Both the position numbers and the translations under genes were made by a program. Below the pieces are notes generated by a model, which was given only the letters and a program-made list of their open reading frames with translations, had not been told where the DNA came from and made no database searches. From Malania oleifera (lineage: Eukaryota; Streptophyta; Magnoliopsida; Santalales; Ximeniaceae), in contig NC_080423.1 of assembly GCF_029873635.1 (NCBI RefSeq), positions 93,663,691-93,727,690 on the forward strand: a stretch of 64,000 bases of DNA, read 5' to 3'. Position 1 is the stretch's first letter, and each line of letters starts with the position of its first letter. This document shows positions 7,763 through 64,000 of the stretch, in pieces.

Positions 7763-7953
7763 CTCGTCGAAGAACGCTCTGCGTTCGTCGATGAACAGCC
7801 TTCTAGGGCTCGTCAACGTGGACGCGTGTCTCATCGACGAGAGTTTACTGAGGGGCTATTTTTAGGGTCTGAAACTCGTCAGCGAGGGTTACATGTTCGT
7901 CGACGAACTCCCTTCTTGAACTTGTCGACAAGGTGACGTGGCTCGTCGATGAG
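7763..7953 (+). promoter_or_regulatory. Eight-palindrome module of the element A promoter
   Basis: Eight 12-bp sites of consensus YTCGTCGACGAR lie in two groups of four with a spacer around 7846-7872 (TACTGAGGGGC). They run from CTCGTCGAAGAA at 7763 to CTCGTCGATGAG at 7942, about 20 bp before the TATA box. The same layout occurs in every complete gypsy LTR of this type in the window. Confidence 0.8.
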
Positions 7954-27573: not shown

Positions 27574-28530
27574 TTAGGGCACATATTCACTCTCTAGGAT
27601 AGGTTGCGTCCGAGTCACCATTGCTATCGGAGCTTTGGTGTTCCCCACTGAGGTCATCTGGAAGGCTTCCCCCACATCTGCAGCTTTCTCCATCTGTTGC
27701 ATTTTCTTCCTGCGCTTATACTTCCCCACCCACAATACCAGGAACGCTAACAAAAACAACAACAAAACCCCACCCACCACAGAGCCAACAATTATCCAGA
27801 CCTTGGAATTGCTCTTCCCACCACTTGGTTCAACTGTTGGGGCTCCACCACTTGGGGTAGGAGGCAATGGTGCCGGAGAAGGCGCAGTTGACTCTACCAC
27901 TATGGAGAAATGCCCCTGTTGGGTCGTTGAGCACACATTACCTGATGCTACATTGCTGAAATTGACCAAACCATGCAAATCAAAGTGAACACACTTGGCA
28001 ACTGACCCATCCGACACTGATTTCAAATTCTGAAACTTGATTGTTATGGGTTCCCCGGATGCTGTAATGTTCAATTCAGGCAAATTTGTAGCTGATAAGT
28101 TTGATGCATCATAAGCAAGAAGACCCACGACAGGAGCTAAATGCATATAACCATCTAGATGGTAATACCTTGAAGACCAATTTCCCAAGTTCTGGTACAC
28201 CAGAACAAGTCTTCGCACATATGGGTGCTCTAAAACACCAATAGGAATGACAAATTCTTTGTACATTTCAACACCTTTACTTCTTAAGCTACCACTTCTG
28301 AGCCTCATTGCTGCAATCTTAATCCCAGTTAAATTTGAAGGAACAACACCATCGTAAGGAATGCCTGTTCTTGGGCGAACAAAGGCCCTGTATGCATAAT
28401 CTTGAAGAAGTGCGTCTAGGGAACGTGCAGGGCCAACAGAAAATCCAGAAGATTGAGCTCTCACCTTCGGAGACCAGAATAATAACCAAATGGACAGAAG
28501 AAGCATCGCGAGACTTCGAAGAAGCCCCAT
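27574..28530 (-). CDS. DUF1191 family membrane protein
   Basis: The frame gives 318 residues from the ATG at 28530 (the upstream in-frame codon at 28542 is TTG, so it is not used). Residues 1-25 are a signal peptide (MGLLRSLAMLLLSIWLLFW, cleavage after VRA). The DUF1191 domain follows: ARSLDALLQDYAYRAF, TGIPYDGVVPSNLTGI and MRLRSGSLR are family hallmarks. A Pro/Ser linker (about 215-242), one transmembrane helix (about 244-269) and a basic KYKRRKK tail end in SEYVP. NXS/T sites in the ectodomain suggest N-glycosylation. It is probably a type I plasma-membrane protein. Its biochemical role is unknown. The frame is intact, without introns. Confidence 0.93.
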   Translation of the reverse strand: MGLLRSLAMLLLSIWLLFWSPKVRAQSSGFSVGPARSLDALLQDYAYRAFVRPRTGIPYDGVVPSNLTGIKIAAMRLRSGSLRSKGVEMYKEFVIPIGVLEHPYVRRLVLVYQNLGNWSSRYYHLDGYMHLAPVVGLLAYDASNLSATNLPELNITASGEPITIKFQNLKSVSDGSVAKCVHFDLHGLVNFSNVASGNVCSTTQQGHFSIVVESTAPSPAPLPPTPSGGAPTVEPSGGKSNSKVWIIVGSVVGGVLLLFLLAFLVLWVGKYKRRKKMQQMEKAADVGEAFQMTSVGNTKAPIAMVTRTQPILESEYVP

Positions 28531-29726
28531 CGATGCTTTCAAGTTTCAAAATTCAGCACAATGCCGCTAGATTGTGTCCTTAAATCCCACCAAGATAAAA
28601 CCCAAAAGTCAAACACAAAAAATGTATGCAATGGTCAGATCCAGAACATAGAATATGGGAAGCCAAGCAAAATGGAATTGAAACTCTGCCAAATTCGTTT
28701 GTGTAAGAATCACTCCTCTCAGAGCTAAAATTCCATATTTGGAAATGATTTGCAGTGGATGCACTGTTAATGGGAACAGCGGGCAGTTGCAATTTACAAA
28801 AGAAAAAGATATATTCTCACGAGATTAAGATTTGGATAATAAAAGCAACTTTGAAGCATTCAATCCAAACCCAACCGTTGCAGAGTATATATAATGTGCC
28901 TCGGATCACTTTTCCCCTTTGGAATCCTTCTAAAAGAGACGCTTACAAGAGCATTGCCAGACAAGTGTAAAGGCCAGGGAATCTTTCAGTTTCGAGGAAA
29001 ATTAAAACCCAAAGTTCTTTGTATTCCTTCCCGGGAGAATAGAAATGAAAGAAAATTGGAATTTGTAGCTACTGGAAGAATCCAGCCCAAACAAGCAATA
29101 CAGCGAATCTATTAACTGCGTTTGTTCAGTAGATTAAGTAATGCAGATTCAGTACGAAGAAGATCAAACAGAATACCTGAACTTCGTTCCAAAAGCTGGA
29201 TTGCATTTGGAAACCCTAAATGCCCGCCCATGATCTTTCAGCTATCCCATCCAATCAAGGGCCAAAGACGACTTGCAGTGGAGGTTCTCCGAACAGTCAA
29301 AATCCACTTAAACACTCCACGCATGCTCTGCCACTACCAATGCCACCGGAAATGCACGAGAAAAAGCAGAAAACCCTAGAACACTCCATCGCGTCACGCC
29401 ATTGCCGAACCAGCAGCACAAGACTTCGCAAAAATTCACAAGAAACCCAGGCAGATTAAGCAGCGCCCAGAACACCCAGCAGATTCAATTGGCCGGCATT
29501 CCCGAAACCCGCCGCGAACAGCGGAGAAACCGTATCAGAGCCGCCGCTATCTTCTGATTCCCCGAAGATCAAAGTCCTTCTTTATGGCGATTTCGGTTTG
29601 CCCCGCGAAACTCGCAGCAGCGAAGCGAATGTCAAGATGCCCAGAGAGAATCAACAATCTCGCGAGCTCGAATCTTGGGTGGAAATCGGAGAGGAGAAAA
29701 GCTCCACCACAGACGAACACAGCGAG

Positions 29727-36121: not shown

Positions 36122-37160
36122 ATGGATCCCAAGGATAATAATACGAACGCTGGAGGAAGCAGTAACGAAGGAGTCAAATGCGGACGGTAATGGCTCTATA
36201 TTGGCAATTCGGGACTTCAACCAATAGTTCATGATTGAGGTCATGCGGAGTTCTAGGGGGTAGGACCGTCCCACCACTGAGCTAGGGTGTACCATCGATC
36301 AGTTCACCCGCATGAATCCTCCCACATTCGTGGGAAGCGTTGACCCAATAGTTGTTGAGTATTGGGTGTGGGAAATCAAAAAGATCTTGGCCGTACTGCG
36401 TTGTACAGATGAGCAGAAGGTACTCTATGCCACGTTCAAGTTGACTAGAGAGGCCGAGAGATAGTGGCAGGAAATACATCTATCAGAGGAGCGAAGATTG
36501 GTACCTGTAGTGATGACTTGGAGTCACTTCAGAGAGTTTTTCTTTGACTGGTATTTTCCAGCTTCCGTTAGAAACGCTAAGGTAGAAGAGTTCTAGAATC
36601 TGACTCAAGGATAGCGGACTGTTCAGAAGTAGGCTGCCTGGTTTGTAGAGTAGTCACGTTTTGCTCCCTATATGGTACCAGACGAGTCCAGAAAGGCTTG
36701 GAGGTTTGAGAGGGGTATGAGGTAAGAGATCTTGAACCAGGTGGTTGTATTGTAGGTGCAAGATTTCTCTACACTGGTGGATAAGGCCACTGTGAAAGAG
36801 ACGAGCCTACAGGGAGATGTGGGGGGTTTAAGACCTGAAGAAGAGACCTATGTCTTCTAGTTCTCACACGGGTGCGAGGCAGGGCCCTTGGATGAGGTAT
36901 GGAAATAGCAGAGACCAGTGATGGGAGATGGGTGGTGGAGTATTTTAGGGTATCTCATCATACCCTGCTTGCCCTACATGTGGCAAGAGGCATCTAAGGG
37001 AGTGCAGGGGAGGATTAGTTGGTTGCTTTTAGTGTGGTAGGCTCAAACATATGATGTGATATTATCACGCGACGTTGAACAATGCACCCCCACAGCATTA
37101 GTATCGGGGAGGTAACCAGGCACCGTGCGGAAACTACCGGAGGGGCATGACCTAGGCGCG
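36122..37160 (+). pseudogene. Element B Gag, decayed
   Basis: From the ATG at 36122 the translation follows Tekay/Del Gag through several frames: FTRMNPPTFVGS near 36305, LAVLRCTDEQKVLYATFKLTRE near 36390, and the zinc knuckle region at 36960-37060 (CPTCGKRHLREC and a second knuckle with a stop). It runs into the protease region. Multiple stops. Confidence 0.8.
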
Positions 37161-37161
37161 G

Positions 37162-38759
37162 GTGTATTCCTTGACTCCTGGCGACGCCGAGAATGGAGGA
37201 GATGTGGTAACAGGTAACATTTATGTGCTTTCAAATAGAGCTATTGTATTGTTTGACTCAAAAGCAACGCACTCTTTCATTTCTCAGGGGTTCATCAAAT
37301 TATGCGGGGTAGAGACACAATTGTTAGATGCCAAGTTAGATGTGGTCACACCGATAGGGTCAGTGGTAGTGTGTAGCAAAGTGATTAGAGACTACCCAAT
37401 GAAGATTAAGGGGAGAGTGTTTTCTGCTAGCTTGATTGTTTTTGACATGCATGGTTTTTATGTCATTATGGGGATGGGCTGGTTAGCATCCAGTTACGTG
37501 AGTAATGACTAACACAGGAAGAAGGTAGTGTTCAAACCTCCTGGGGAGCAGGAGTTTAAATTTGTTGGGTCATGTGGGCGCTCTACACCACAGATTCTTT
37601 CAGTCCTTAAGGAAAGGAGACTACTTCTGGAGGGATGCCAGGGGTACCTAGAGTTTGTGAAAGAAGCACTGAGGAAGGAACTTAAGCTTGAGGGTATCCT
37701 TGTGGTAAGGGAGTTCTCAGACGTTTTTCCTAAGGACTTATCAGGATTGCCTCCTGTTCGCGAGGTGGATTTTGCCATTAATTTGATTTTAGGGATGGCA
37801 CCAATTTCTAAAGCTCCATATAGAATGGCTCTAGCTGAACTAAAGGAGTTGAAGGAGCAACTACAGGAACTACTTGACAAGGGGTTTATTTGATCGAGCG
37901 TATCACCTTGGGGAGCACTGGGGTTGTTCTTAAAGAAAAAAAATGGGTTGATGAGGATGTGCATCGACTATAGGGAAATTAACAAAGTGATAGTAAAGAA
38001 TAAGTACCCATTACCTCGTATTGATGATCTGTTCAACCAGTTACAGGGCACACAAGTATTCTCCAAGATTGATCTTCAATCTGGGTATCATCAGGTGAAG
38101 GTTAAATCAGAGGATGTACCAAAGGCGACTTTCCACACTAGGTATGACCATTACGAATTTCTGGTTATGCCTTTTGGATTGACCAATGCTCCTGCGACAT
38201 TTATGGATCTGATGAAGAGGGTATTCCACAAGTACTTAGATCAGTTCATGGTTGTTTTTATCGATGACTTCCTGATTTATTCGAGGATCCATAAGGAGCA
38301 TGCGACTCATTTGAGATTGGTACTTCAGGTACTTCAGGAAAGAAGTTGTTTGCTAAATTCAAGAAATGCGAATTCTAGTTGGAACAAATTGCATTTTTGG
38401 GACATGTAATGTCCAAGGAAGGTGTTTTAGAGGACATGAGCAAAATAGAGGCAGTAATTGATTGGGCGAGACCGAGGAATGAGCATGAGTTTAGAAGTTT
38501 CTTGGGTCTGGCAGGATATTATTGTCGATTTGTAAAGGAATTTTCTAGACTGTCAGGTGCTCTGACATGGCTTATGAGGAAAAACATGAAGTTTGAATGG
38601 ACTGATGAGTGCGAGCAGAGTTTTTAGGAACTGAAGCAGTGACTAGTCACTACCCCAGTGTTGACCATTCCATCTGAAGATGGTGGATTTGTGATCTACA
38701 GTGACGCATCTTAGAAAGGACTCGGGTGTGTCTTAATACAATAGGAAAAGGTCATCGTG
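37162..38759 (+). pseudogene. Element B Pol (protease, RT), cut by element D
   Basis: The protease has DSKATHSFIS, with Lys for the usual Gly of DSGATHSF. The reverse transcriptase (37528-38640) has [43 protein letters not shown] and FIDDFLIYS, and ends with [18 protein letters not shown]. The RNase H begins (IYSDAS) and is cut at 38759 where the LTR of element D starts. A one-base frameshift near 38340 and several stops break it. The rest of RNase H and the integrase were not found to the right, so they have been lost. Confidence 0.88.

Positions 38760-40344: not shown

Positions 40345-40393
<49 letters not shown>
40345..40393. repeat. GA microsatellite in the element D LTR leader
   Basis: About 24 GA units just downstream of the TATA box on the element's own strand, where they read as CT. 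Confidence 0.95.
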
Positions 40394-40455: not shown

Positions 40456-40646
40456 TTCATCGACGAAGTGGCGCCCTCGTCGACGAGCTACAGAAGGTCG
40501 TTCGTCGACAAAAGAAAGGCTTCGTCGATGAACCCTAAACTTGATATTTTTGGCTGTTCTGGATCTCTTCATTGACGAGACTCTGAATTTCGGCGACGAA
40601 CCACATAAAGGCCTTCATCGACGAGAACTTGGACTTCGTCAACGAA
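40456..40646 (-). promoter_or_regulatory. Eight-palindrome module of the element D promoter
   Basis: Four sites (TTCATCGACGAA, CTCGTCGACGAG, TTCGTCGACAAA, TTCGTCGATGAA), a spacer (about 40537-40568), then four more (TTCATTGACGAG to TTCGTCAACGAA). Total 191 bp, ending 20 bp from the TATA box. Confidence 0.8.
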
Positions 40647-40725: not shown

Positions 40726-41098
40726 ATCTCCCCTCCTTATAAAAATTTCGTTCTTGAAATTTGCTAACTATTTTCTATCACATCATTTGAACTATCACTG
40801 CTTTGACTCTAGGAAGAGCTGGTGGCCACCCACATAGTAGCCCTATCTCAAATTTATTACCTGCCCTCACTTATGGCGAAGGAATACTATGGTTACACAT
40901 AATATCTCAGGAATTTACAATACCATACATAATCCTCCTAGAGACCATTCATACATAAACAACCGACACACTAAACATACTTAGCCTACTTGACTTGCAT
41001 ATAAAACTAAATACGTACCTGTCCAACCGTACCGGTTTATTTAATACCGATAAACACTGAAAAGTTGTGGGTACTTCTAGCGTAATTCTATCTCTAGC
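40726..41098 (-). pseudogene. Element D, end of Pol and 3' untranslated part
   Basis: Reading leftwards from 41098, the frame continues the chromodomain tail interrupted at 54145 (SWELE then RYPQLF-like residues), followed by noncoding sequence up to the polypurine tract. The stretch is separated from the rest of D by the insertion of element C. Confidence 0.75.
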
Positions 41099-41178
41099 TG
41101 TAGTGACCCAAATATTTAAATATTTAAATAATGGAAGAAGGAGAAAAAAGGGAATTAAAAGAAATAATTAAACAGGTC

Positions 41179-41367
41179 CTCGTCGACGAACACAGGAAAT
41201 TCTTCGACGAGAGAACAAGGGGGTCTCATCGATGAGGGAGCATTTCGTCGACGAGAAAGTACCGAGAGGATGTTTTGGCAAATTCTGAATTTCTTCGACG
41301 AGGGGAGAGTTCGTCGACGAATTATCTTCATGACCTCGTCGACGAGGTGACATGGCTCGTCAATAAA
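41179..41367 (+). promoter_or_regulatory. Eight-palindrome module, element C 5' LTR
   Basis: Sites in order include CTCGTCGACGAA, TTCTTCGACGAG, CTCATCGATGAG and TTCGTCGACGAG, then a spacer with ACCGAGAGGATG, then TTCTTCGACGAG, TTCGTCGACGAA, CTCGTCGACGAG and CTCGTCAATAAA. The last site ends 8 bp before the TATA box. Confidence 0.85.
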
Positions 41368-41375
41368 GGCCAATG

Positions 41376-41383
41376 TATAAATA
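41376..41383 (+). promoter_or_regulatory. TATA box of element C 5' LTR
   Basis: TATAAATA between the palindrome module and a CT-rich leader. Confidence 0.75.
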
Positions 41384-41992
41384 AGCCAAACTTCATTTTT
41401 TTTAGCTGAAATCCAATGCCCAAACTCTCTCTCTCACCTCCCTTCGTCCCTCCACCCTTCTCTCTTAATTTCTAGGTCCGTTTGCCGCCGGATCGGCGAT
41501 CCGAAGCCACCACGACACTCCTGGAGAAGTTCTCTGCATATCTATTAGAGTGGATGGTCGGTGGGACGAGCTTGGAATTCATCCCAAATTCGGGGTAAGG
41601 TTTTTATTCAATATTTGACCTTCCTAATAGTTGTAGAAAACGTAGTACGTGTAGAAATACTAAAATTTTATTCTCGAAAATGTTGTTTCTAGGGTGTTGA
41701 ACGAGGAACCTAGCGAGTGTTGGATTGATTGCTTTAGGGGTTTTTCCAAGAGTCAGGTAAGGGGATAAATTAAGTTAGTTATTTTATGAAAATATATGTA
41801 TGATATTATAGCATTTGATTTCAGAAAATAAATATATTTATATATACACTATGTAGGGAAAATACTGTTGTAACTGACGATATGTTCTGAATATACGTGA
41901 AACCCATTTTGTGTGGCATGAGTAGAATTTATGATGAATTACTGTTTTCTGGGAATATGATAATGATATAGATTTTTATAATGAAAAACTGG

Positions 41993-42205
41993 TGTACGAG
42001 CAGAGCTATGGATATGCTTTGCCGGCGTACGAGCCGAGCTATGGATATGTTTTGCCGTTGTACAGGTTGAGCTATGGATATGTTTTTTTGGCATACGGGC
42101 CGAGCTATGGATATATTCTGTCAGCGTACGGTCTAAGCTATGGATATGTTTTGCCGGCGTACAGGCTGAACTATGGTAAAATATGAAATGCCGGCGTACG
42201 AGCCG
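41993..42205 (+). repeat. Minisatellite in element C 5' LTR
   Basis: Five to six units of about 36 bp containing GAGCTATGGATATG and GCGTACG. The 3' LTR has fewer units (49017-49140), so copy number changed after insertion. Both strands stay open through the repeat, which creates spurious frames. Confidence 0.9.
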
Positions 42206-43208
42206 ATAATTTTCATGATGTATATATATATATGCAAAATGATGTGATGATATTGATTGGGCAATTAATAGTATGAAATATCCATGTATCACAGTTTCAT
42301 TATATGCTATATGTTATCAGAACCTGGTTGGCTTGGTTTAGGCTAGCACTTGCACGGTACCGCTGCTATGTGTTCATGATCATCATGATATTGTGTTAAC
42401 ACTGTCATACGGGGTGGTGTGAGGACAGATAGTCGTTGTGGTTTTAAGAAGTATGAGCATCCCTGGTGTACGGACTAGGTCTGGCAGACCCATTGGACTT
42501 ACAGACTATACTTTTGACTTGATAGTGGTTGATCAACCATTATCAGGTCCCGCCTTTGGGCCACACAACCGAGTCATGTGGGGGTAATACATGACAACAA
42601 CCAGCTAACCTACTAGGGTTGTTTTATTATTATTATAATATGAGATGAATTATGCTTATGAAAATCTAGTATGTTCTTCCATGTTATGAGTATATATGTT
42701 TTCCCAGATATGGTACAGACAGTTACACTGCTATGTTTATGTATGGTTTTATGTATAACACGGAAATACTCATGTTGCCACACACTAATATTAGTTTATT
42801 TCCCTTACTGAGAGGTGTCTCACCCCGAATTATATGAACTTTTCAGAAGCCCCTGATAGGAGAGCGGATAAAGCTCCGTTGAAGTAGTTACAGCTGGTCT
42901 GCCCTTTTTGAAGGGTAAGTGTTTTGGTAGGGTCGGATGTATTTTGTGGGAAATGACACTAGGACTCCTTTTGAGTTGTAAATATAATTACAATGGATGT
43001 AGTAACTCTGGTATTGTGGTATGGTATGGTGTAGATGGTATTATGAGGTGTTTATGATTTATGTTTCCTGTTGCTTAAGCTTCCGTACTGTATTCTGATG
43101 TATCCCTGGTACCCACGGGTTCAGGTTGATTATGATCTGCCGAGATTATTATATCAAATTTTACTATTATAGAAAAAAAATGTGGAAATTAAGCAGGTCA
43201 TCACAGTT

Positions 43209-43509: not shown

Positions 43510-44560
43510 ATGGATCTAAGACGAGGTAGTGCCCATGTGAGTGGCAGTGATGGGCCAGGGCCCTTAGGAGCAGGTGGGACTGACTCTGATGCAGTACTAC
43601 GTAGCGTGGCTCAATAGGTTATGCCTGAGATCGCTAGGAGCTCTGGAGAACAGGGTGGTCCATCTGTAGGCCATGGGTGTACCATAGAGAAGTTTACGAA
43701 GATGAATCCTCAAGAATTTTCAGGAGGAGTCGATCTTGTAGCCGCTGAGAATTGGATGCAGGAGATTGAGAAAATGTTGGCTATGTTGCAGTGTACAGAA
43801 GAACAAAGGGTCCTCTTTGCCACTTATAAACTAACAAGAGAGGCTGAGAGGTGGTGGTCTGCTGTGAGACTTCTAGAGCAGCAGAGCACGACGCCGATAG
43901 CTATGACTTGGGATCGATTTAAAGAGTTGTTCTTTGATAGATATTTTTCAGCTACTGTTAGGGAGGCTAAAGGGGAGGAGTTCCTGAGTTTAAAGCAGGG
44001 ACAATTATCGGTCCAGCAGTATGCGGCGCGGTTTATAGAGCTTTCTCGCTTCGCTTCGTATATTGTGCCTGATAAGGTGAGAAATGCGAGACTATTTGAA
44101 ATAGGTTTGAGGTGAAGCATATTTAAGCAGGTGATAGTGCTAAGAATCCAGGATTTTGCTGAGCTAGTCGACAGAGCAGCCTTGGTAGAGGTTGGTGAGC
44201 GTCTGGATGCATAGGAGCAGGGATAGAGGAAGAGATCTACATCTTTGGGCTACTAGCAGGGCCGTAGACAGAATCAGTGGAGGAGAGGAAACCATGGCAA
44301 AGGATGGAGGCAGGATACTAGAGGACGTAAGGTGCAGGCAGTGCAGGGTACTCCTGTCTGTCAGACTTGTGGGAGGAGACACTGGGGAGACTGTCGAGTA
44401 GATGGAGCTGTCTGCTATCGCTACGGTAGACAGGAGCATATGGTGTGAGACTACCTTACACCACCAGATGCAGCTTCTGCTCCTAGACCATACCGAGGAG
44501 GATATCAGGTGCCACGTGGGGTCCAACAGAGGAATATGACTCCAGCCAGAGTGTTCGCTC
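43510..44560 (+). pseudogene. Element C Gag
   Basis: From the ATG at 43510, with a stop at 43618, the main open part (43621-44115) reads as a well-kept Gag capsid: FTKMNPQEFSGGVD, AENWMQEIEKMLAML, RWWSAV, DRFKELFFDRYFSATVR and LSVQQYAARFIELSRFA. After a stop at 44113 the C-terminal part has two zinc knuckles near 44370-44450 (CQTCGRRHWGDC, then CYRYGRQEHMV with a lost cysteine). Only a handful of stops make this the best preserved Gag in the window. Confidence 0.85.
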
Positions 44561-46558
44561 TGACTCCGGGTGATGCTGAGACAACTGGTGATGTGGTGAC
44601 AGGTATGGTTAGTATGCTTTCTTTTAAAGTTATTACATTGTTTGATTCAAGAGCCATACACTTGTTTGTGTCTTCAAGATGCGTTAAATTATATGGGGTA
44701 GACACACAATCATTAGATGTTGAACTGATGGTATCTACACCGACCAGGTCAACAGTAAGGTGTAGTAGGGTACTATGGAGCTGTCCAGTTGATATTCAAG
44801 GGGAAATTCTGTCTGCCAATCTGATAGTGCTAGACATGCATGGATTTGATGTAATCTTCGGCATGGATTGACTAGCAGCTAATTTTGCTATTATAGAATG
44901 CCAATGACGAGAAGTGTTATTCAGACCTCCATGAAGAGTAGAATTCAGGTTCGAAGGGTCGCGAGTGCAATCTTCGCCACAGCTAGTTTCAACTATTCAG
45001 GCAAGGAGACTACTGCTGAGTGGTTGTCAGGGGTTTATGGCATTTGTGAAGGAAATGTCAGGGAATGAATTGAAACTCACTAGCACGCTTGTAGTAAAGA
45101 AGTTGACACATGTTTTCCAGATGAATTACTAGGGTTGCCACCTGATCGGGAGGTAGATTTTCCTATTGATCTACTTCTGGACACAGTGTCGATTTCTAAA
45201 GTACCTTACCGAATGGTGCCAGTAGAATAGGCAAAATTCAAGAATCGATTGCAAGATTTGCTTGATAAGGGCTTTATATGACCTAGTGTATCGCCATAGG
45301 GAACTCCAGTTTTTTTTGTAAAGAAGAAAGACGGGACTATAAGGATGTGTATAGATTATAGAGAAATTAATAAAGTAGCAATCAAGAACAAGTATCCTCT
45401 ACCCCATATAGATGATTTGTTTGACCAGCTCCAAGGAACACAGGTATATTCAAAGATTGACCTCAAATCAGGTTATCATCAAGTGAAAGTGAAAGCAGAA
45501 GACGTCTTGAAGACGACCTTCAGGACCAGGTACAAGCATTACAAATTTCTTGTTATGCCGTTTGATTTGACGAATGCTTCTGCAGTATTTATGGACTTGA
45601 TAAATAAAGTCTTCCACCAATATTTAGACCAGTTTGTTGTTGTTTTTATTGACGATGTACTGATCTATTCGAGGAATTATGAGGAACATGAGATACACTT
45701 GAGGCAGGTTCTACAGATGCTCAGGGAAAAGAAGTTGTACACCAAGTTCAGTAAATGTAAATTCTGGCTTGAGAAGGTTGTGTTTTTGGGGCATGTTATT
45801 TCAGGAGATGGTATTTCTGTGGATCCTAGTAAAATTGATGTGGTTGTGAATTGGGCTAGACCGAGAAATGTTCTGGAGATCAGGAGTTTCTTGGGGTTAG
45901 CTGGGTATTACCATCGTTTCGTCGAGGGATTCTCAGTGTTATCAAGGCCTCTAACATGACTGACAAGGAAGAATGTCAAGTTTAAGTGGGACGATAACTG
46001 TGAGCAGAGTTTTCAGAAGTTGAAACAGAGGCTTGTTATGACACCGGTGCTGATCATCCCGTCATAGGGTGAAGGTTATGTCATTTAAAGTGATGCGTAC
46101 TTGAAAGGACTTGACTGTGTATTGATGCAGCATGGCAGGGTGTAGCGTATGCTTCTAGGCAGTTGAAAAAGTATGAAAAGAACTACCCTACTCATGATCT
46201 TGAGTTGGCTGCAATAGTACACGCATTGAAAATTTGGAAGCATTACTTGTATGGCGAGCGGTGTGAGATTTTCTCTGACCACAAGAGTTTAAAGTACTTT
46301 TTCTCCTAGAAGGAATTGAATATAAGGCAGAGATAGTGGTTGGAGCTTATTAAATATTTTGACTACACTATCAGTTACCACCCAGGGAAGGCGAACGTGG
46401 TAGCTGATGCATTGAGCAGGAAGTCCAAGGAACGAGCGTTGGCGGCTTTGGAGATCCAGTATCTGATCATGATGGATCTGGAGAGACATGGTATAGAGTT
46501 GGTTGAGGGTGGTCCTCATGTATGTATTGCCAGTCTGGTGGTGCAGCCTACTCTGTAG
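44561..46558 (+). pseudogene. Element C Pol: protease, RT, RNase H
   Basis: The protease segment (to 44871) has DSRAIHLFVS in place of DSGATHSFVS. The reverse transcriptase (main open part 45345-45959) has [38 protein letters not shown] with both aspartates, and [13 protein letters not shown]. RNase H (46040-46440) has KSDAY in place of [23 protein letters not shown], and [18 protein letters not shown]. Stops at 44869, 45286, 45957 and 46308 and a frameshift near 45100 inactivate it. Confidence 0.9.
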
Positions 46559-47900
46559 GAAAGGATTAAAGCTGCTCAGAAAGATGATCCAGAATTAGCA
46601 GAGGTATTAGTTAGGGTGCATAATGATTAGAGGGAGGAGTTTTGTATTGCAGATGATGGAGCGTTGTGGTTTTGTTCTAGGTTATGTGTTCCTGCCATTA
46701 CTGATATCTGTAAAACTATCTTAGAGGAGGCTAACAGATCTTTGTACACAGTTCATCCTATTAGTACGAAGATGTATAGATATCTGCGAGAGTCTTATTG
46801 GTGGAGTAGTATGAAGAAATAAATTGTTGAGTATGTAGCTCAGTGTCTGACGTGTCAGCAGATAAAATGCTGACATCAGTATCACATGGCCAAAATGCGA
46901 TTTGGGTGATTGTAGATCGATTGACTATGACCGCCCATTTCCTACCTATAAAGATCAGCTATCCGCTCAATCGTTTGACAGAGATTTACATTCAGGAGAT
47001 AGTTTGTTCTCATGGAGTTCCAGTATCTATTGTATCAAATTGAGACGTGCGTTTCACGTCACGTTTTTAGAGGAGCTTGTAGGAGGCTCTAGGGTCTCAG
47101 TTATCATTCAGCACGACATTCCATCCTCAGTCAGATGGGCAGACTGAGAGGACAATACAGATATTGGAAGATATGCTTCGAGCGTGTGTATTAGATTTTG
47201 GGGGTAGTTGGACCCAGTTCATGTCGCTGGTGGAATTTGCGTATAATAACACTTATCAGACCAACATTTGCATGGCCCTGTATGAAGCACTGTATGGTAG
47301 GAGATGTCGTTCTCCTTTATTTTGGGATGAGATGGGTGAGCGGCGAGTTATGGGACTAGAGCTGGTACAACAAGCATATGATAAAGTTCGATTCATCTAA
47401 GACAGGATCAGTGCAACTCAGAGCTGACAAAAGAGTTATGCTGATAATCGCCACAGGAATTTGGAATTTGATGTTGGTGATCATGTATTTATAAAAATAG
47501 CTCTATTAAAAGGGGTTATTTGATTTGGAAAGAAAGGTAAACTCAGCCCTAAGTTCATCGATCCGTTTAAGATTCTAGAGAAAGTGGGGCCGATTGCCTA
47601 TAAGCTAGCTTTGCCACTTGTGTTGTCCAGGATTCATGACGTATTCCACATTTCCATGTTGAGGAAATACGTCCCAGACCCTTCTCACATAATTAGTTAT
47701 GGTGAATTAGAGTTCAGTGATTCACTAGCTTATGAGGAGGTGCCAGTATAGATTCTGGATAGGAAGGAAAAAGAATTGTGTAATAAGAAGATTCCTTTGA
47801 TGAAAGTCTTATGGAGAAATCATGCAATAGAAGAAGCCTCTTGGAGCTCGAGGAACAGATAAAGCAGAGATATCCACAAATATTTAGGGAAGTGTAATAG
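46559..47900 (+). pseudogene. Element C integrase and chromodomain, with core deletion
   Basis: The zinc-binding part ends CLTCQQIKC near 46865, and the next residues are already the [21 protein letters not shown] segment. About 40 codons are therefore missing, including the first catalytic Asp (MDF). The core resumes with the [15 protein letters not shown] and QSDGQTERT motifs, then YEALYGRRCRSPLFWDE, and the chromodomain tail ends near 47900. The deletion alone rules out integrase activity. Confidence 0.85.
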
Positions 47901-48206
47901 TAGGTAATGTTTCTTTTGCAGGTACATGTAGTGGTTTAGTTAGTGAATAGTATTTTAGTTTTGGGGGAATTTTCTTTTGTATATGTAATCTCCCAGGACT
48001 TGGAATGTAACCACGGTGTTCCTCCACCATAAGTAAGGGTAAGTAATAAAATAAGTAGACCGTTTTTCTTTTAAGGGATGATGAATAGCAAATTTTGAGG
48101 ATGAAATTTTTATAAGAATGGGAGAATGTAATGACCCAAATATTTAGATATTTAAATAATGGAAGAAGAAGGGAAAAGGGAATTAAAATAAATAATTAAA
48201 CAGGTC

Positions 48207-48395
48207 CTCGTCGACGAACACAGGGAATTCGTCGATGAGAGAACAAGGGGGTCTCGTCGACGATGGAGCGTTTCGTTGGCGAGAAAGTACCGAGAGGATG
48301 TTTTGGCAAATTCTGAATTTCGTCGATGAGGAAGGATTTAATCGACAAATTATCTTCATGACCTCGTTGATGAGGTGACATGGCTCGTTGATGAA
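48207..48395 (+). promoter_or_regulatory. Eight-palindrome module, element C 3' LTR
   Basis: Same 4 + spacer + 4 layout and the same 189-bp length as in the 5' LTR. Several sites have decayed by CG-to-TG or CG-to-CA changes (CTCGTTGATGAG, TTAATCGACAAA). Confidence 0.8.
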
Positions 48396-49016
48396 GGTCA
48401 GTATATATATAGGTCAAACTTCATTTTTTTTAGCTGAAATTTGACGCCCAAACTCTCTCTCTCACCTCCCTTCGCCCCTCCACCCTTCTCTTTTAATTTC
48501 TGGGTGCATGTGCTGCCGGATCGATGATCCAAAGCCACCACGACACTCTTGGGGAAGTTCTCTGCATATCTACTAGAGCGGATCATCGGTGGGACGAGCT
48601 TAGAATTCATCCCAAATTCGGGGGAAGGCTCTTATTTAGTATTTGACCTTCCCAACAGTTGTAGTAAATGTAGTACGCGTAGAAATACTGAAATTTTATT
48701 CTAAGAAATGTTGTTTCTAGGGTGTTGAACGGGAAACCCAGCGGGTGTTGGATTGATTGCTTTAGGGGCTTTTCCAAGAGTCAGGTAAGGGGATAAACTA
48801 AGCTAGTTATTTTATGAAAATATATCTATGATATTACAACATTTGATTTTAGAAAATAAATATATTTATATATACACTATGTTGGGAAATACTGCTGTAA
48901 ATGATGATATGTTCTGAATATACGTGAAACCCATTTTGTGTGGCATGAGTAGAATTTATGATGAATTACTATTTTCTGGGAATATGATAATGATATGGAT
49001 TTTTATAATGAAAAAC

Positions 49017-49140
49017 TGGCGTACGGGTCGAGAATTTTATATATATTTTGTTGGCGTACGGGCTGAGCTATGGATATGTTTTGCTGGTGTACTAGCCGAG
49101 TTATGGATATGTTTTGCCGGCGTACGGGTCAATGATTTTC
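49017..49140 (+). repeat. Minisatellite in element C 3' LTR
   Basis: Three to four units homologous to 41993-42205. Confidence 0.85.

Positions 49141-49146
<6 letters not shown>

Positions 49147-49195
<49 letters not shown>
49147..49195. repeat. TA microsatellite in element C 3' LTR
   Basis: About 24 TA units. The homologous place in the 5' LTR (42223-42232) has only about five. Confidence 0.95.
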
Positions 49196-49198
<3 letters not shown>

Positions 49199-49559
49199 AA
49201 ATGATGTGATGATAATGATTGGGCAATTAATAGTATGAAATATCAATGTATCACAGTTTCATTATATGCTATATGTTATCAGAACCTGGTTGGCTTGGTT
49301 TAGGCTAGCACTTGCATGGTACTGCTACTATGTGTTCATGATCATCATGATATTGTGTTAACGTGTCGTACGGGGGGGGGGTGTGAGGATGGATAGTCTG
49401 TAACGACCCGAATTTAAAATGGAAATTTGAGTAATAAGAGAGAGGGAAATAGAAACAGAAACAGAAGGAGGCCATAGACTTCGTAGACAACATTGCATTT
49501 TTGGAAGGAAAAGAAAAGGGAATGGAAACAAAATAAAATAAAGAAGGAAGCTGCCAAGC

Positions 49560-49725
49560 TTCGTCGATGAACACAGGGTTTTGTCGACAAAGCCTTAAAG
49601 GATTTCGTCTACGAACACAGGGCTTTGTCGACGAGAAAATGCCGAGAGGGGTTTCGGAGCTGATTGAATTTCGTTGACGAGGAGTGGATTTCGTCGATGA
49701 AATTTGTGAAGAACTCGTCGAAGAA
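49560..49725 (+). promoter_or_regulatory. Palindrome array of the solo LTR at 49399
   Basis: Four sites (TTCGTCGATGAA, TTTGTCGACAAA, TTCGTCTACGAA, TTTGTCGACGAG), a spacer with TGCCGAGAGGGG, then three (TTCGTTGACGAG, TTCGTCGATGAA, CTCGTCGAAGAA). The eighth site of the usual layout is missing here. Confidence 0.75.
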
Positions 49726-50463
49726 TTCCGCCACCTATAAATATGAAAAATCTGATTTTTATTTCATATGCAAGCTTCCTCTCCACTCTCTCTCTCTCTC
49801 TCCCCTTTTCGGCCCTCTCACTCTCTCTTTTTGATTTTGAGCTAGTTTTACACTGAATCGAAGATTTGAGGCTACCACGACGCTCCTGGCGAAGTTCCCT
49901 ACAAGTTTGCCGGAGCGGATCGTTGGGGAAACAAAGTTGGAAATCATCCCAGAGTTGAGGTAAGGCTTTTTAAGCCAAATTAGACTTTGTGATAGTTGTA
50001 AGAATTGATGTACGAATGAAAATAATGATGATTAATACTGGGAGTTTTGAGTTTCAGGGTATTGAGTAGGAAATCCTACGGGGGTCAGGCTAGGATTTTA
50101 AGGGGCTTTCTCAGTAGCCAGGTAAGGGAATAAACTAAAGCAGTAATTTTTCATGGATATTATTATTAATTATGAGCACATTTATTTTCAGAAAAGCCTA
50201 TGCTATCTTTGTATATTACGAATGAAATGCATGATTGGGAAAATACTGCTATGATGATTAAAAATGTATATGTATGTATGAGATGCTCGAAAATCATGAT
50301 TTTAGTATAACTATTAACAAAGCATGTGTGGCATGAATATTATTTTACGTAAAATGAGTTATGATATGAATGCTTTTACGAGTAAAATTGGAAAGATGAA
50401 TTATGTTATGTTGAGTTGACGAATATACGATAAATGAGTTATTTTCAAAATGTAAATACCTGA

Positions 50464-50670
50464 AACGTATTTGGCCCGAGGCCATATTTATATTGTCGGC
50501 ACGAGGCCGTATTTATATGATTTTGGCACGAGGCCATGTATGTATGCTATCGGCACGAGGCTGTATTTATGTTATTGGCGCAAGGCCATATTTACTATGA
50601 TTTTGGCATGAGGCCATATGTATGATTTCGGAACGGGGCCGTATCTATGTTTTTGGCACGAGGCCGTGAT
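50464..50670 (+). repeat. GGCACGAGGCC minisatellite
   Basis: Eight units of about 25-30 bp with the core GGCACGAGGCC followed by a TATTTATAT-like tail. It sits at the same relative place in the LTR as the unrelated minisatellites of the other families. Confidence 0.9.
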
Positions 50671-51831
50671 GATGTTATGTATGTTCATGTATTATATGTT
50701 ATTACAATCAGGATGTTAGTTTAGTTCAGTTTAGGGCTCGGTACCGTAGCTATATGTGTAGATCAGATATCTACTTCAGATTAGTGCTAACCATCCCATG
50801 AGGGGATGGGAGATGGATAGTCGATGTGGCTTTCAGTAGAGTGTGGACGTCCACCTGGCAGTCCGGACCAAGGTGTGGCGGGCCCATCGTTTTTACAAAC
50901 ATATTTGATTCGGCAGTGGTCGGCCAACCATTATCGGGTCCCGCCTTCAGGCTGCACAACCCATCATGGGGGGTAATACATGACATTAGCTAGCTATTCA
51001 TCTTGGGTTTGTTTTTAGTATTACGAGTTATAACAGATGTTTATGTATGTTATGATTTATCAACGAATATGAAAGTACATGATTATCTAGTAGGATATTG
51101 TGATTATTTCCAGAATTATGAAATGTACTGTATATGTATAAGCACTTTTAATATTCATGTTGCCACACAGCTGTATTTACTTTATTTTCCTTTACTGAGA
51201 AGTTTCTCACCCCCTACATTAATATATTTTTTAGGAAACCCAGAGAAACCGGCGGGTCTAGGCCGCCGTTGAGTGAGTGGATCTTCCCTACTAGAAGGGT
51301 AAGCTTTGTACTAGGACTAAGAGATTTTTGTTGTGAGGTCCTAGTGTTATTTTTGACTTTTGGAGATTGTACATATAAACAGTATATTGATGTTAATAGA
51401 AAACTCTGGTATTATGTTTCATGGTTGAATGATTGAGATTTTATGTTTACTGCTGCATAGGTTTTCCGCTGTGTTTGACAGATATCCCCGCTACCCACGA
51501 GTTCGGGTTGACCATTTTATCTCATACATTACATTTTATGTTAAGAAATTGAGGGACGTTACATAGTCGATGTGGTTTTAAGGAGTGTGAGCGCCCCTGG
51601 TGTATGGACCAGGTCTGGTAGACCCATCGGACTTACAGACTATACTTTTGAATTGGCAGTGGTCGGCCAACCATTGTCAGGTCCCACCTTCGGGCCACAT
51701 AACCGAGTCATGTGGGGGTAATACATGACAACAGCCAGCTAACCTACCAGGGTTGTTTTATTATTATTATTATAATATGAGATGAATTATGCTTATGAAA
51801 ATTTAGTATGTTCTGCCATGTTATGAGTATA

Positions 51832-53628
51832 TGTCATGCCCCGAACCCGAAAATGGGACCCAGAGTGAAAATGTAATCTAACATGTCCCCATATCATACA
51901 ACCATCCACAGATACAGTACAAAGGATGAGGGTCCGACCCCATGGGGTTCCCAGGCACCCTAAACACATCCAAACATAACCATATACGCAGCAAAAAAAG
52001 GTCAATCTACATATATATATATATATATGAAGTACCATACCAGAGTCTATATAAGAGTAGAAACAGACTCTATCATACAACGTACAGTTGGGTGCCCAAC
52101 ACATCCCAAAATGGCAACCCACCAAAACACAGTCCTAGCACTTACCCAAGTGCTAACCACAGTACACCAGCCACTACGCTCCCTACACAAGGACTCTAGT
52201 TCCGGTTACTCGAAGAACGTGTAAAAATGTTCGTACAATAAGGGTGAGACACCTCTCAGTAAAGAAGAACACAGGTTATATCGGTGTGTAGCATTTGAGT
52301 GCTATCATGATGCAACATATATGTTGTTAAATGCAGTTTCAGTACTAATTTTACACAATGCATGCACGCACACACACGCATACGCACCCCCACGATCTAC
52401 CCGATGTCGTCACACCCCTCGGCCCAAAGCCAGTCTGTAATATCCGACGTTAGCCTATAGCCAACTCGCGATACATGGCACCACTGGCACATAGCTAGTC
52501 CCAAGCTACCAAGGGATCATACCGGCACTAACTGGTGGATCCACACCCTTCGGTGATCAACCGGTACAGCCTCACGCCCTCGGATATAGAGCCGAACACT
52601 CTCAGTACCTGAAACAAATTCAGAACCCCGTTCTTACAAGCATTTAAACCAATCACACACACATGCATGCTCATATAAACAAACAACTCACACCCATTTG
52701 GTAATCTCAAATCATGGTTTTCCAAACATACTCAATTTAAAACAAGTCAAGGCACGACCATCACCATAACACAGTATAAATCAACATATACTCTCGGTTT
52801 TCAACAAAACCAGGGATGCAGCCTGTCGCCCCCTTTTTCCCAAAACTGTAATCATGAAAAACCCATAGTTTTTCCCGTTAGATTTTTTCCCCAAATGAGT
52901 AGCCAAAACATACACAGGACCATGAACCACAGTTCCACCAAGTCTGATTTAAAAAATAACCGATATAAACATAATTCCCCTTACCTTTTCCCCAAATAGC
53001 TAATCTCGAACTCTAAGACCCCTAAACAGCGAACCGAGTTCCAAAACCTACAATCAATAGTACAGAAGACACCCACAACACTGTTCTTTACTAAACTACA
53101 AGATCAGAATTGAAAATCGAACCTTACCTCGATTTTATGCCAAAACCCAAAAATCTCCAAAACGAGATTCCAATCTGTAGAACTTGTAGAGAATCCTTCC
53201 ACGATCCTCGTGGTAACTTCAGATTTACAATTCTTGTGAAGAACGGTGAAGAATTCTAGAGAGATAGAGAGTAGGGAGAGTTCTAGAGAGATAGAGAGAA
53301 AATATTTGAGTTTTCTTAGCTTATGAGTAATGAAACTTCTATTTATAACCCTTTGACCAGGCCACTTCTTGTCAACGAATTGTGTCCTCGTCGACAAGGC
53401 TCTATAGTCTTCTCATCGACAAGCCCAAGAGCTCGTCGATGAGTCTGGGATCTCCGATTTTCTAAAACCCCTCAGCTTCTCCTCATCAACGAGCCTCTAA
53501 ACTTCGTCGACGAGAGATACAAGGCCTTTGTCGACGAACTCTGGCTTTGTCGACGAAACCTGTTCAAATTCCAATTTTACCCCTTTCTTATTTATTTAAA
53601 CCCATTTATTATGGTTTGGGTTCTTACA
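51832..53628 (-). mobile_element. Gypsy solo LTR inserted in reverse in the element C 3' LTR (1797 bp)
   Basis: The plus strand runs TGTCATGCCCCG to GGGTTCTTACA, the reverse complement of an LTR that starts TGTAAGAACCC and ends GGCATGACA. Flanks are GTATA at 51827-51831 and 53629-53633. It belongs to the same family as the element E LTR at 57998. It holds the eight-palindrome module (53368-53557), TATAAATA on the minus strand (53340-53347), and minus-strand splice-like signals at 53127, 53048 and 52984. Confidence 0.92.
53368..53557 (-). promoter_or_regulatory. Eight-palindrome module of the solo LTR at 51832
   Basis: Four plus four sites with a spacer around 53430-53470, 190 bp in all, oriented with the minus-strand TATA box 21 bp beyond its left edge. 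Confidence 0.8.
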
Positions 53629-54144
53629 GTATATATGCTTTCCCATATATGGTACAGACAGTTACACTGCTATGTTTATGTATGGTTTTATGTATAACAT
53701 GGAAATATTCATGTTGACACACACTAGTATTAGTTTATTTCCCTTACTGAGAGGTGTCTCACCTCGAATTTTATGAACTTTTCAAGAGCCCCTGATAGGA
53801 GAGCGGATAAAGTTTCGTTGAGGTAGTTACAGTTGGTCTGCCCTTTCTGAAGGGTAAGTGTTTTGGTAGGGTCGGATGTATTTTGTGGGAAATGACCCTA
53901 GCACTCCTTTTGAGTTGTTAATGTAATTACAATGGATGTAGTAAATTTGGTATTGTGGTATGGTATGGTGTAGAATGTATTATGAGGTGTTTATGATTTA
54001 TGTTTCCTGTTGCTCAGCCTTCCGTACTATATTTTGATGTATCCCTAGTACCCACGGGTTCAGGTTGATTATGATCTGCCAGGATTATTATATCAATTTT
54101 TACTATTGTGGAAAAAAAATGTGGAAATTAAGCAGGTCGTCACA

Positions 54145-57100: not shown

Positions 57101-57890
57101 GAGCGCATACACGACCCTTCAAATTTAAACTCTTGCTCCCTTAGAGGCCTGAATACCACCTCCTTCCTGTGACAGTCTATGTTTGCGTAGCTAGAGGCTA
57201 GCCAATCCATTCCTAGAATAATGTCAAATCCATGCATATCGAATATTATTAGGCTAGCAGGCAGCTTTCTACCTTGAATCTCCACTGGGTAGTTTCTAAC
57301 CACCTTACTGTATACAATAACCGACCTTGTTAGGGTGGCCATTCCTAACTCAATGCCTAACAGCTGAGCCTCTATTTCACATACTCTAACAAACTATCTA
57401 GATACAAATGAGTGAGTCGCACCTGAATCAAAAAGCACAACATCTTTATGGGAAAACATATAAGCAATACTTGTAACTGCACCCCCTGCGTGCTCGGCTT
57501 CATCCGGTGTGATAGAATACACCCGCGTCTGGGCAGTATTTCCCTGGTGACCATTGCGGGGTGCTTGATTCCCTCTCCCATACTGTTACTATTGAGGTGT
57601 GTAATTCACTGTTACAGGACAGTCCTGCACCTAATGCCTTGCTACACCGCAATGGTAGCAAACTGCTGTTCCAGCCCTACACTCGCCCCAATGCTTCTTA
57701 TGGCATATAGGACAAGTGGCACTCTGGGAACTCCCTTGAGAGGCTCGAGATCCCATCACATGCCACTGACCTAACGAACTATCAGGTCATTTTCAGGAGT
57801 TCTGACCAAAGTTGGACTGATAACTCGGAGGCAAGGGCCTCTTCTTCTAGTTTGCCTCTCTCTCCCCGTATCGTAACGGGGCTGCGTATA
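54145..57890 (-). pseudogene. Element D Gag-Pol (minus strand), 5'-truncated
   Basis: Reading leftwards: Gag end with the zinc knuckle CPICHKKHWGEC and CYHCGVARH (57720-57610); protease with an intact DSGATHSFVSR site (near 57425) and MHGFDIILGMDWLASSYANID; RT (about 56950-56090) with [19 protein letters not shown] and FIDDILIYS; RNase H (56064-55576) with [18 protein letters not shown]; integrase (about 55330-54650) with CQQVKAEHQRPAGPL and NAIWVIVDRLMK; and a well-kept C-terminal region (54646-54145). Stops and frameshifts are frequent. The 5' end is lost at about 57890. Confidence 0.9.
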
Positions 57891-57997
57891 AATGGCCACC
57901 GGTTCATCTTAGAGTGTGTATGTATTTGGTAGTATGAATGTGTTCGTAATAAAAGATTTCAAATTTCGAGGACGAAATTTTTGTAAGGAGGGGAGGT
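57880..57997 (+). mobile_element. Element E, last internal bases and polypurine tract
   Basis: AAATTTCGAGGACGAAATTT followed by a purine tract (GTAAGGAGGGGAGG) is the standard end of the internal region in these elements. Everything upstream is missing; the sequence abuts the truncated Gag of element D in head-to-head orientation. Confidence 0.7.
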
Positions 57998-58067
57998 TGT
58001 AAGAACCCGATTCGTGATAAATGGATTAAATTGATTAAGAGAGGGGGAAAAAGGTAATTGTGCAGAC

Positions 58068-58256
58068 TTCGTCGAGGAGGCCATCATTCGTCGACGAAGG
58101 CTAGTGGCTCCTCATCGACGAAATTCAAAGGCTCGTTGATGAGGGAATGCCGAGAGGTTCGAAAAATTGGAAATATTTGGCTCGTCGACAAAACCACCAT
58201 CTTGTCGACGAGGAACCTGATGAACTCGTCGACGAAGACGTCATCTCATCGATGAA
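58068..58256 (+). promoter_or_regulatory. Eight-palindrome module of element E
   Basis: TTCGTCGAGGAG, TTCGTCGACGAA, CTCATCGACGAA and CTCGTTGATGAG, a spacer with TGCCGAGAGGTTCG, then CTCGTCGACAAA, CTTGTCGACGAG, CTCGTCGACGAA and CTCATCGATGAA. Total 189 bp. Confidence 0.85.
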
Positions 58257-58314
58257 TCCACCCAAGTCAAAGGCCTTTAAAAGATCTTTGGGGTTGCTTT
58301 GGGGTTAAGAAAAC

Positions 58315-58318
<4 letters not shown>

Positions 58319-58379
<61 letters not shown>

Positions 58380-58386
58380 TCTCTAG
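58319..58386. repeat. CT microsatellite in the element E leader
   Basis: About thirty CT units directly after the promoter. Confidence 0.95.
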
Positions 58387-59267: not shown

Positions 59268-59412
59268 GTGTGAGCTACACTCTATTGGCAATGTAATCGC
59301 TGTGAAGCTTCGGGTTTCATGGAGTAGTTGCGTATTAGTGTGAGCTACATCGTATTGGCAACGTAATCGCCGAAAAGCTTCGGGTTTCATAGAGTAGTTG
59401 CGTATTAGTGTG
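59268..59412 (+). repeat. 70-bp tandem duplication in element E LTR
   Basis: Two full copies starting at 59268 and 59338 (GTGTGAGCTACA, ATTGGCAA, AAGCTTCGGGTTTCAT) and the start of a third at 59408. Confidence 0.9.
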
Positions 59413-60005: not shown

Positions 60006-60151
60006 ATAATTAATAAATTTGGGATGGGGTTGCTATGTGGGTAGCCACTAGCTCTTCGTAGAGTCGGTAGGCATATCAATGATAATCCAGCAGATGCAGT
60101 GAAAGTCATTTAACAAATTTTTAGGATGATATTTTTGTAAGGAGAGGAGAA
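60006..60151 (+). mobile_element. Element F (B-like), last internal bases and polypurine tract
   Basis: The stretch ends AATTTTTAGGATGATATTTTTGT followed by AAGGAGAGGAGAA, the usual pre-LTR signature. Because the LTR that follows matches that of element B, this may be the 3' end of B itself, displaced by the nested elements. Confidence 0.6.
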
Positions 60152-60438: not shown

Positions 60439-60439
<1 letters not shown>

Positions 60440-63508: not shown

Positions 63509-64000
63509 TGTAATGACCTGGAAAATTTTAACTATTTAAAATAATAATTAAGATAATAAAAAGGAAAAAGGGAAATAGAAGAAAGGGAAAAGAAATTTTA
63601 AAAAGGAACCAAGCAGGCACTTGTCGACGAACTTGCTTTTCTCGTCGACGAGCAATCTTCTGAGCCTCATCGCCGAGTATGTATGTCTCGTCGATGAGGG
63701 TTTACTAAGAGAGGTTCTCATATTTTTGAATTTCATAGACAAGTGCCCGATTTCGTCCACCAACTGTGTTCTTTGGCTCGTCGACGAGTCCAGATGTCTC
63801 ATCGACGAGGCCACGTGGCAAGTTGCCTATAAATAGGCAAAAATCAGAATTTCAAGGATTTCATTTTCTCTTATGTTTCTCTCTCTAAAAATGGCCTCTC
63901 TACTTTCTCTCTTCAAATATGGCCCGGTTTAGCCCGATTCGACGATCAGAAGTTACCACGAGACTCTTGAAAAGATTCTCTACAACATAGGCGAAGTAGA
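63509..64000 (+). mobile_element. Element G 3' LTR, cut by the window end
   Basis: It starts TGTAATGACCTGG. The eight-palindrome module (63620-63809), TATAAATA (63828-63835), CT-rich leader and the conserved ACGATCAGAAGTTACCACGA block (63942-63961) are present. The element A LTR is the closest match in these parts. Confidence 0.85.
63620..63809 (+). promoter_or_regulatory. Eight-palindrome module of element G
   Basis: CTTGTCGACGAA, CTCGTCGACGAG, CTCATCGCCGAG and CTCGTCGATGAG, a spacer with ACTAAGAGAGGTTC, then TTCATAGACAAG, TTCGTCCACCAA, CTCGTCGACGAG and CTCATCGACGAG. Total 190 bp, 18 bp before the TATA box. Confidence 0.85.

Follow-up and report, generated by a model that had tools for sequence, protein, structure and literature searches.

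An eight-palindrome module ahead of the TATA box in chromovirus-like LTR retrotransposons of Malania oleifera

Palindrome arrays and the elements that carry them

The window, a stretch of 64,000 nucleotides (64 kb) of the Malania oleifera genome, contains eight palindrome arrays, seven of them with eight sites (modules A–G) and one, module H, with seven (Table 1). The site is a 12-bp palindrome, YTCGTCGACGAR, with three CpGs when intact. Allowing up to 2 mismatches, the window has 67 copies of the 12-mer, where shuffles lead one to expect 1.95; a slightly wider site definition gives 69 sites, against a mean of 2.38 in 50 dinucleotide shuffles of the window, in which no array was found. Three mismatches were seen in 3/63 sites (C site 8, D site 6 and G site 5). 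A preliminary description of this DNA had listed a module at each of these eight places and all were found, with lengths of 189–191 bp and, for the seven-site version, 166 bp. They represent seven, not eight, independent insertions, because the modules at 41179 and 48207 lie in the 5′ and 3′ LTRs of one element (hereafter C/D).

Table 1. Modules and associated features in the window.
Feature	Position	Strand	Details
Module A	7763..7953	+	3′ LTR, LTR end 10039; TATA-distance class 18–20
Module B	40456..40646	-	3′ LTR of minus-strand element (presumed)
5′ LTR of C/D	41099..43205	+	TG...CA, 2107 bp; TSD CTAGC at 41094–41098
Module C, eight palindromes	41179..41367	+	5′ LTR of element C/D
Module C sites, 12 bp each	41179, 41200, 41225, 41244 / 41291, 41310, 41335, 41356	+	
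Module C central-gap motif CCGAGAGG	41262..41269	+	6 bp past site 4
Module C last gap gtgacatgg	41347..41355	+	
Module C TATA box TATAAATA	41376..41383	+	8 bp past site 8
PBS-like TGGTATTAGAGC of C/D	43209		one mismatch
C/D gag + pol, decayed	43618..47838	+	Retrotrans_gag, RVT_1; RNase H and integrase C-terminal by tblastn
3′ LTR of C/D	48127..54144	+	interrupted by two nested solo LTRs; TSD CTAGC follows
Module D	48207..48395	+	3′ LTR copy, same element as 41179
Module H, seven sites	49560..49725	+	in solo LTR 49399–51563
Module E	53368..53557	-	in solo LTR 51832–53628
Module F	58068..58256	+	plus-strand LTR adjoining minus-strand element
Module G	63620..63809	+	LTR start near 63509

The carriers of the module are Ty3/gypsy elements of chromovirus-like type, not Ty1/copia. 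Element C/D has the Ty3/gypsy hallmarks of paired LTRs, a 5-bp TSD and a tRNA-type primer binding site (PBS-like, and presumably of the tRNA-Met type), and its gene order, with gag at 43618, RT at 45300, RNase H at 46142 and the integrase C-terminus at 47347, is that of Ty3, in which RT-RNase H precedes integrase. Pfam searches of the window ORFs recovered Retrotrans_gag and Ty3_capsid in the gag of C/D, RVT_1 in the elements of A and C/D, and RT_RNaseH with SH3_Tf2-1 in the minus-strand element of B. C/D is inserted into this older minus-strand element, whose pol similarity runs from about 57500 down to 54143, where integrase similarity stops; from coordinates and orientation, its 3′ LTR would be the one that carries module B. 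The element of module A shows pol similarity at 1505–4997 and 7253–7387, and the intervening gap (4997–7253) is insertion-like, integrase query residues up to 205 ending at 4997 and the match resuming at 7253.

Beyond the window, gag or pol homology was present in 13/20 fetched 10-kb loci and in none of the other 7/20, and the module was found at the expected LTR place in eight loci (L016, L017, L018, L022, L026, L028, L029 and L032). A chromodomain may be present in the carriers: PF00385 occurs in several homologues, although the Pfam Chromo match in window ORF 54140–54649 (E = 0.049, 14 bits) falls under the 25.1 cut-off and Pfam gave no Chromo match in the L022 ORF. The lineage may be that named Tekay/Del. 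No DNA-binding gene besides gag-pol was seen in the ORFs scanned, in a scan that was not exhaustive.

Several other features share the window. The two solo LTRs nested in the single 3′ LTR of C/D, at 49399–51563 (TSD TAGTC) and 51832–53628 (TSD GTATA), belong to different families, are both module-bearing and have clean 5-bp TSDs. A gypsy element at 36231–38759, kin to the lineage of B (RT 75% identical over 122 aa), has no assigned module in the window, and its similarity ends beside TGTAACGCCC at 38760. A 323-aa minus-strand ORF at 27574–28545 encodes a DUF1191 protein and probably belongs to the host, its closest named match being 74% (Ilex paraguariensis), and ORF 12678–13172, with a retroviral-type SH3-like domain (SH3_retrovirus), is presumably the remnant of a copia element. 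A GA microsatellite (40345–40393) lies downstream of the TATA box in the LTR of module B.

Abundance, spacing and conservation of the sites

The module is abundant in the host genome. A search of 1,494,336,490 bases in 510 contigs for core pairs at step 21, tolerating up to 2 mismatches, returned 71,920, and the reversed control gave 23; exact core pairs at gaps of 1–60 numbered 42,824, against 1. Arrays hold 1.13 step-21 pairs each among the eight of the window and 1.44 among 91 fetched arrays, which were chosen for such pairs; dividing 71,920 by 1.44 or 1.13 gives a rough estimate of 50,000–64,000 arrays. Outside the host, the pair pattern in viral contigs amounted to four stretches (L001–L004) of 2–3 sites each and no array, and neither an RT search of viral contigs nor an integrase search of genome contigs returned relatives of the carriers.

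The preliminary description arranged the sites as two groups of four. The number eight stands, but pairs fit the data better (2+2|2+2, with step order a-b-a-c-a-b-a): steps are about 20, 24, 20, 46, 20, 24 and 20 bp, with few between those classes. Mean steps in the 46 complete modules of 99 oriented arrays were 20.4, 24.4, 20.0, 46.7, 20.1, 24.3 and 20.5. Across 97 arrays, 330 steps fell at 19–21, 166 at 24–25 and 98 at 43–52, compared with two each at 17, 22 and 23, one each at 40 and 41, and none at 26–39; a further 38, at 53–71, reflect absent sites or an additional one upstream. Most fetched arrays were picked via an exact step-21 pair on contig C1, a choice from which 16 arrays that were not search targets (8 of them the window's) are exempt, and in these 16 the three step classes hold 98/100 steps. 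The exact pairs at gaps of 1–60 are likewise free of the step-21 choice, although the figures cover the 100 listed first out of 42,824, every one on C1: 34 lay at 19–21, 15 at 24–25, one at 26, 27 at 44–46, five at 48–56 (48, 51, 55–56) and 18 at 63–69, with zero at 11–18, 22–23, 27–43 and 57–62. The basic unit therefore seems to be two sites separated by about two helical turns. Steps drift by 1–2 bp, so helical phase is inexact, and successive pairs lie on different faces of the DNA, rotated by roughly 70–100 degrees if 10.5 bp per turn is assumed.

Two other regularities proposed earlier held less well. The length said to be always 189–191 bp is that of the window, but the 46 complete modules (window included) span 185–195 bp, or 173–183 bp from first to last site start, and constancy of the total is weak (P = 0.03 for all 46 modules, 0.18 for 30 distinct step vectors). 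Mirror (inverted) symmetry across the whole module, an idea that arose from module C, is not supported as a rule, the correlations being weak: 0.27 (s1–s7), 0.28 (s2–s6) and 0.06 (s3–s5). Some 10-site arrays carry on the a-b alternation of short steps, and some arrays have a further site 53–56 bp upstream; the 10–11-site arrays at L015:3367–3600, L017:4957–5246 and L032:8745–9032 continue a similar rhythm. In 14 long steps with an apparently empty slot, a decayed site was recognisable in 7 and not in the other 7.

That the sites have diverged far less than the spacers is borne out when CpG decay is allowed for. Between modules of the window (D left out), identity was 0.966 at non-CpG positions of sites, 0.502 in spacers (0.538 at spacer positions outside CpG/TpG/CpA) and 0.471 in shuffled spacers. 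Over the 1,035 pairs formed by the 46 complete modules, non-CpG site identity stayed at 0.971 to 0.987 in all spacer-identity bins from <0.45 to >0.85, and identity at CpG positions in sites at 0.753 to 0.776. Within 733 detected sites, 549/616 substitutions at positions 2–11 were C>T or G>A at CpG, and non-CpG positions of the 10-bp core were unchanged in 2905/2932 cases, an invariance partly conditioned by detection through a similarity threshold and position filter. Since substitutions are mostly CpG transitions, site variation looks like decay after insertion. These comparisons support the view that transposing copies keep both sites and spacing, with selection acting on both once CpG decay is set aside.

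In four LTR pairs there was no CpG protection within sites (52/86, against 53/106 elsewhere in the LTR, P = 0.19); as site CpGs are not better retained, there is no sign of protected, occupied sites in inserted copies. Differences outside CpG/TpG/CpA in the same pairs were 3/190 in sites and 169/2516 outside, figures that are not relied on, given that three of the four pairs were picked by identical steps and are perhaps not the LTRs of one element, and that their sites were located by similarity. The degenerate end bases of a site match across its dyad in 116/202 cases (104.6 by slot-wise permutation, P = 0.04), a covariation that does not exceed the general linkage between end bases.

Promoter context and descent

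The module was said to lie 8–21 bp before the TATA box. The upstream position is confirmed, but the distance splits into two classes: from the last site to TATA it is 8 bp in 46/78 arrays, 18–20 bp in 22/78 and elsewhere in 10/78. These derive from 105 arrays, of which 6 were unorientable and left out; among the 99 oriented, 21 lacked a TATA motif in the roughly 58 bp next to the last site. Orientation made use of TATA and the central motif, so that motif presence is partly circular and distances are not. The two distances differ by about one helical turn, which suggests, as a sequence pattern, contact with the core promoter machinery.

Companion motifs occupy set places in the array. The spacer motif noted earlier, of CCGAGAGG type, was recovered in 64/103 central gaps compared with 4.2 in shuffled gaps, a count somewhat inflated because the strand was chosen with a similar motif; its offset, unaffected by that choice, was exactly 6 bp past site 4 in 60 of the 64 gaps that bear it. 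In the last gap, the core ACGTG occurred in 33/50 modules of the 8-bp class (TATA at 6–11 bp), 3/22 of the 18–20 class and 4/253 other short gaps, rising to 45/50 last gaps of the 8-bp class when CpG-decayed forms were included under a broad, uncontrolled pattern. The last gap of module C reads as such a form, derived by CpG decay from the GTGACGTGG-type gap, with its ACGTG core, of many related modules. Ahead of TATA, GTCAA was present in 12/22 modules of the 18–20 class and 0/55 of the 8-bp class, and a GCCA(C/T)-type sequence lies directly past the last site in six other 18–20 class modules, including A and G of the window. We take ACGTG to be a core of bZIP/ABRE (G-box) type and GTCAA one of W-box type.

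In a tree of the integrase C-terminal region, a supported split (95/91) separates 9 host sequences, aligned over ≥150 residues, from 12 of other plants or metagenomes picked among the matches listed (120 of 6,310); the root is the midpoint used in drawing. The host sequences form two subgroups, one (95/88) with the element of window B, L022 and L026, and one (98/98) with window A, C, L015, L017, L018 and L032. The module was at the expected 3′ LTR place in 8/9 of them (B again by inference), the nearest to L015 being about 1.5 kb off, and the same step pattern occurs in both subgroups. TATA distance and clade do not correspond one to one, since window A, of the 18–20 class, lies in the second subgroup. 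The LTR families do align poorly, as the preliminary description held in regarding the module as shared between them, but the sampled carriers are one related group, and so it is one inherited design that is being kept. On this sequence evidence, a single origin followed by maintenance would fit.

A putative promoter array, its alternatives and known systems

Taken together, we think it probable that the module is an enhancer and promoter-proximal array of the U3 region, bound by a host dimer in cooperative pairs, that drives LTR transcription. Each YTCGTCGACGAR palindrome would be bound by a sequence-specific host factor, which the 10-bp palindromic core with near-invariant non-CpG positions suggests to be a dimer, most likely a homodimer. 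Two dimers 19–21 bp apart, about two turns and on the same DNA face, would form a cooperative pair; pairs would follow 44–46 bp apart, with two double pairs flanking a central gap that has its own CCGAGAGG-type motif. The last pair would be held at a set position ahead of TATA, beside the ACGTG core in one group and the GTCAA core in the other, and the array and companion cores would jointly drive transcription of the LTR. The sequences themselves show that the sites hardly vary, that steps fall into discrete classes, that TATA lies at either of two distances with motifs accompanying the array, and that the design occurs in two subgroups; protein binding, dimers, cooperativity of pairs, activation rather than repression and the host origin of the factor are what we infer. 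Among the literature titles listed, none named a plant protein binding the core, and no paper joined the core with DAP-seq. Paired dimer sites about two turns apart, beside a core promoter, are familiar from enhanceosome-type or homotypic clusters such as the paired operators of phage; the module, known here from its sequence, resembles them in its paired spacing.

The palindromes might instead act as RNA or single-stranded DNA, adjoining sites pairing as 12-bp hairpins with loops of 7–9 nt. Lying in U3 of the transcript from the 3′ LTR, such hairpins would serve RNA processing or feed small RNAs, a role put forward for the palindromes of maize Sireviruses; we consider this alternative unlikely. 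Pairs at short steps are able to make 12-bp stem-loops, their outer end bases match in 67/96 cases where 51.2 are expected (sd 3.7; 29 modules dereplicated from 74), the next base outward retains a weak signal (z = 2.7 at one threshold and 1.8 at another), the fold of module C has z = −2.06 (8/200 shuffles as good), and smRNAs concentrate on Sirevirus palindrome clusters according to PMC10760457. Against these points, the inner, loop-closing bases show no covariation (52/97 vs 50.8), and the apparent z of about 4 for the outer bases was mostly lost when all 120 end-base pairs were compared: at the 0.65 threshold the four outer pairs rank 2, 6, 20 and 77 of 120, so that shared ancestry may explain much of the match. 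Moreover, the predicted fold of module C, the one module folded, joins site 1 with site 4 and not with its neighbour, and RNA structure alone leaves the set TATA distance unexplained. Hairpins are weaker as an explanation than the dimer array. Equally improbable, in our estimate, is an array that recruits silencing or anti-silencing machinery, for example through a factor that attracts Pol IV or strips methylation. A precedent exists in the REM factors, which act with GDE1 and recruit CLSY3/4-Pol IV only when their repeated motifs are set apart by a fixed spacer (PMC12270911), and the module sites are rich in CpGs, which are lost through transitions. The REM motifs given there, TTTTGCTTAT and AAGCGGAT, are repeats with 1-nt spacers unlike the module site, and as candidates for that site they were rejected on sequence; nor does CpG retention, which in four LTR pairs does not differ between sites and elsewhere, speak for silencing and, as a matter of argument, an element gains nothing by keeping a silencing beacon intact.

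There is a slight chance that the array positions nucleosomes or has an architectural role, with a spacing that results from bending of the DNA or its contacts with nucleosomes and no specific factor involved: the steps are regular and near two turns, and the span is near that of one nucleosome plus linker, but the total length is not fixed (185–195 bp) and, we would argue, a near-invariant 10-bp core is stricter than nucleosome preference needs. Least probable of all, we judge, is the absence of function, the array having arisen by recent tandem duplication or repeat homogenisation. That units can be added is indicated by arrays whose additional sites keep to the rhythm, whereas the divergence of spacers to near shuffle level while sites were kept, the identical step pattern in two subgroups and the 42,824 exact pairs against 1 in the control all contradict it.

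It had been stated that no named element has this form, which overlooks the palindromic repeated motifs (RM) of Sirevirus LTRs (Ty1/copia). Bousios et al. 2010 (PMC2829016) describe 13 Sireviruses with eight or more such motifs per element, situated in the LTR ahead of TATA; RMs are 10–20 bp long, number 3–14 in the 3′ LTR and cluster in its upper half, and that paper calls them a Sirevirus-specific feature, conserved while LTRs diverge, with no common binding factor identified. The module is like them in that at least eight clustered palindromes lie in the LTR ahead of a conserved TATA and outlast LTR divergence, and the Vitis Sirevirus RM CGGTCGACCG has the centre GTCGAC in common with the module site (PMC2829016). 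It differs in its Ty3/gypsy carriers and in its core, TCGTCGACGA, which is without CGG or CCG, while a CGG-CCG core occurs in 12/13 Sirevirus RMs. A predicted CpG island is a further trait of RM clusters; in the module, each intact site has three CpGs. The accessible text gives no fixed site number or quantised steps for RMs, both of which the module has, and reports RMs ahead of the env-like gene too, in nine elements (PMC2829016). The palindrome clusters of maize Sireviruses likewise lie in the cis-regulatory region of the LTR, but the palindrome is CACCGGAC...GTCCGGTG, unlike that of the module, and the small-RNA link is one measured in maize (PMC10760457). Arabidopsis REM/GDE1 repeats share with the module a repeated motif, an obligatory spacing and, if the factor is as we suppose, its dimerisation; they differ in sequence and, as described in PMC12270911, are direct repeats with a 1-nt spacer that recruit Pol IV at rare loci. 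Among the matches listed, no array of this kind in Ty3/gypsy elements was found in titles or abstracts of the open-licence literature.

It is possible, although we hold it as a tentative conjecture, that this chromovirus-like lineage has as its master regulator an undescribed host protein that binds the CpG-rich 12-bp palindromes in cooperative pairs. The several hundred thousand sites so spread, on the rough estimate of 50,000–64,000 arrays with about eight each, would then suffice to titrate that protein or to rewire the network it controls, and the eight-site grammar would have arisen independently of the Sirevirus arrays. Palindrome-array LTR promoters, called Sirevirus-specific in 2010, would extend to chromovirus-like Ty3/gypsy elements, here with a spacing stricter than the accessible text of PMC2829016 reports for Sireviruses. 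The natural variants that this one genome provides by the tens of thousands, alike in their sites and unlike in their spacers, would be a data set for the roles of spacing and phase in cooperative binding in plants, and the factor, if found, would reveal how the lineage is activated and whether its many sites soak up a regulator of the host.
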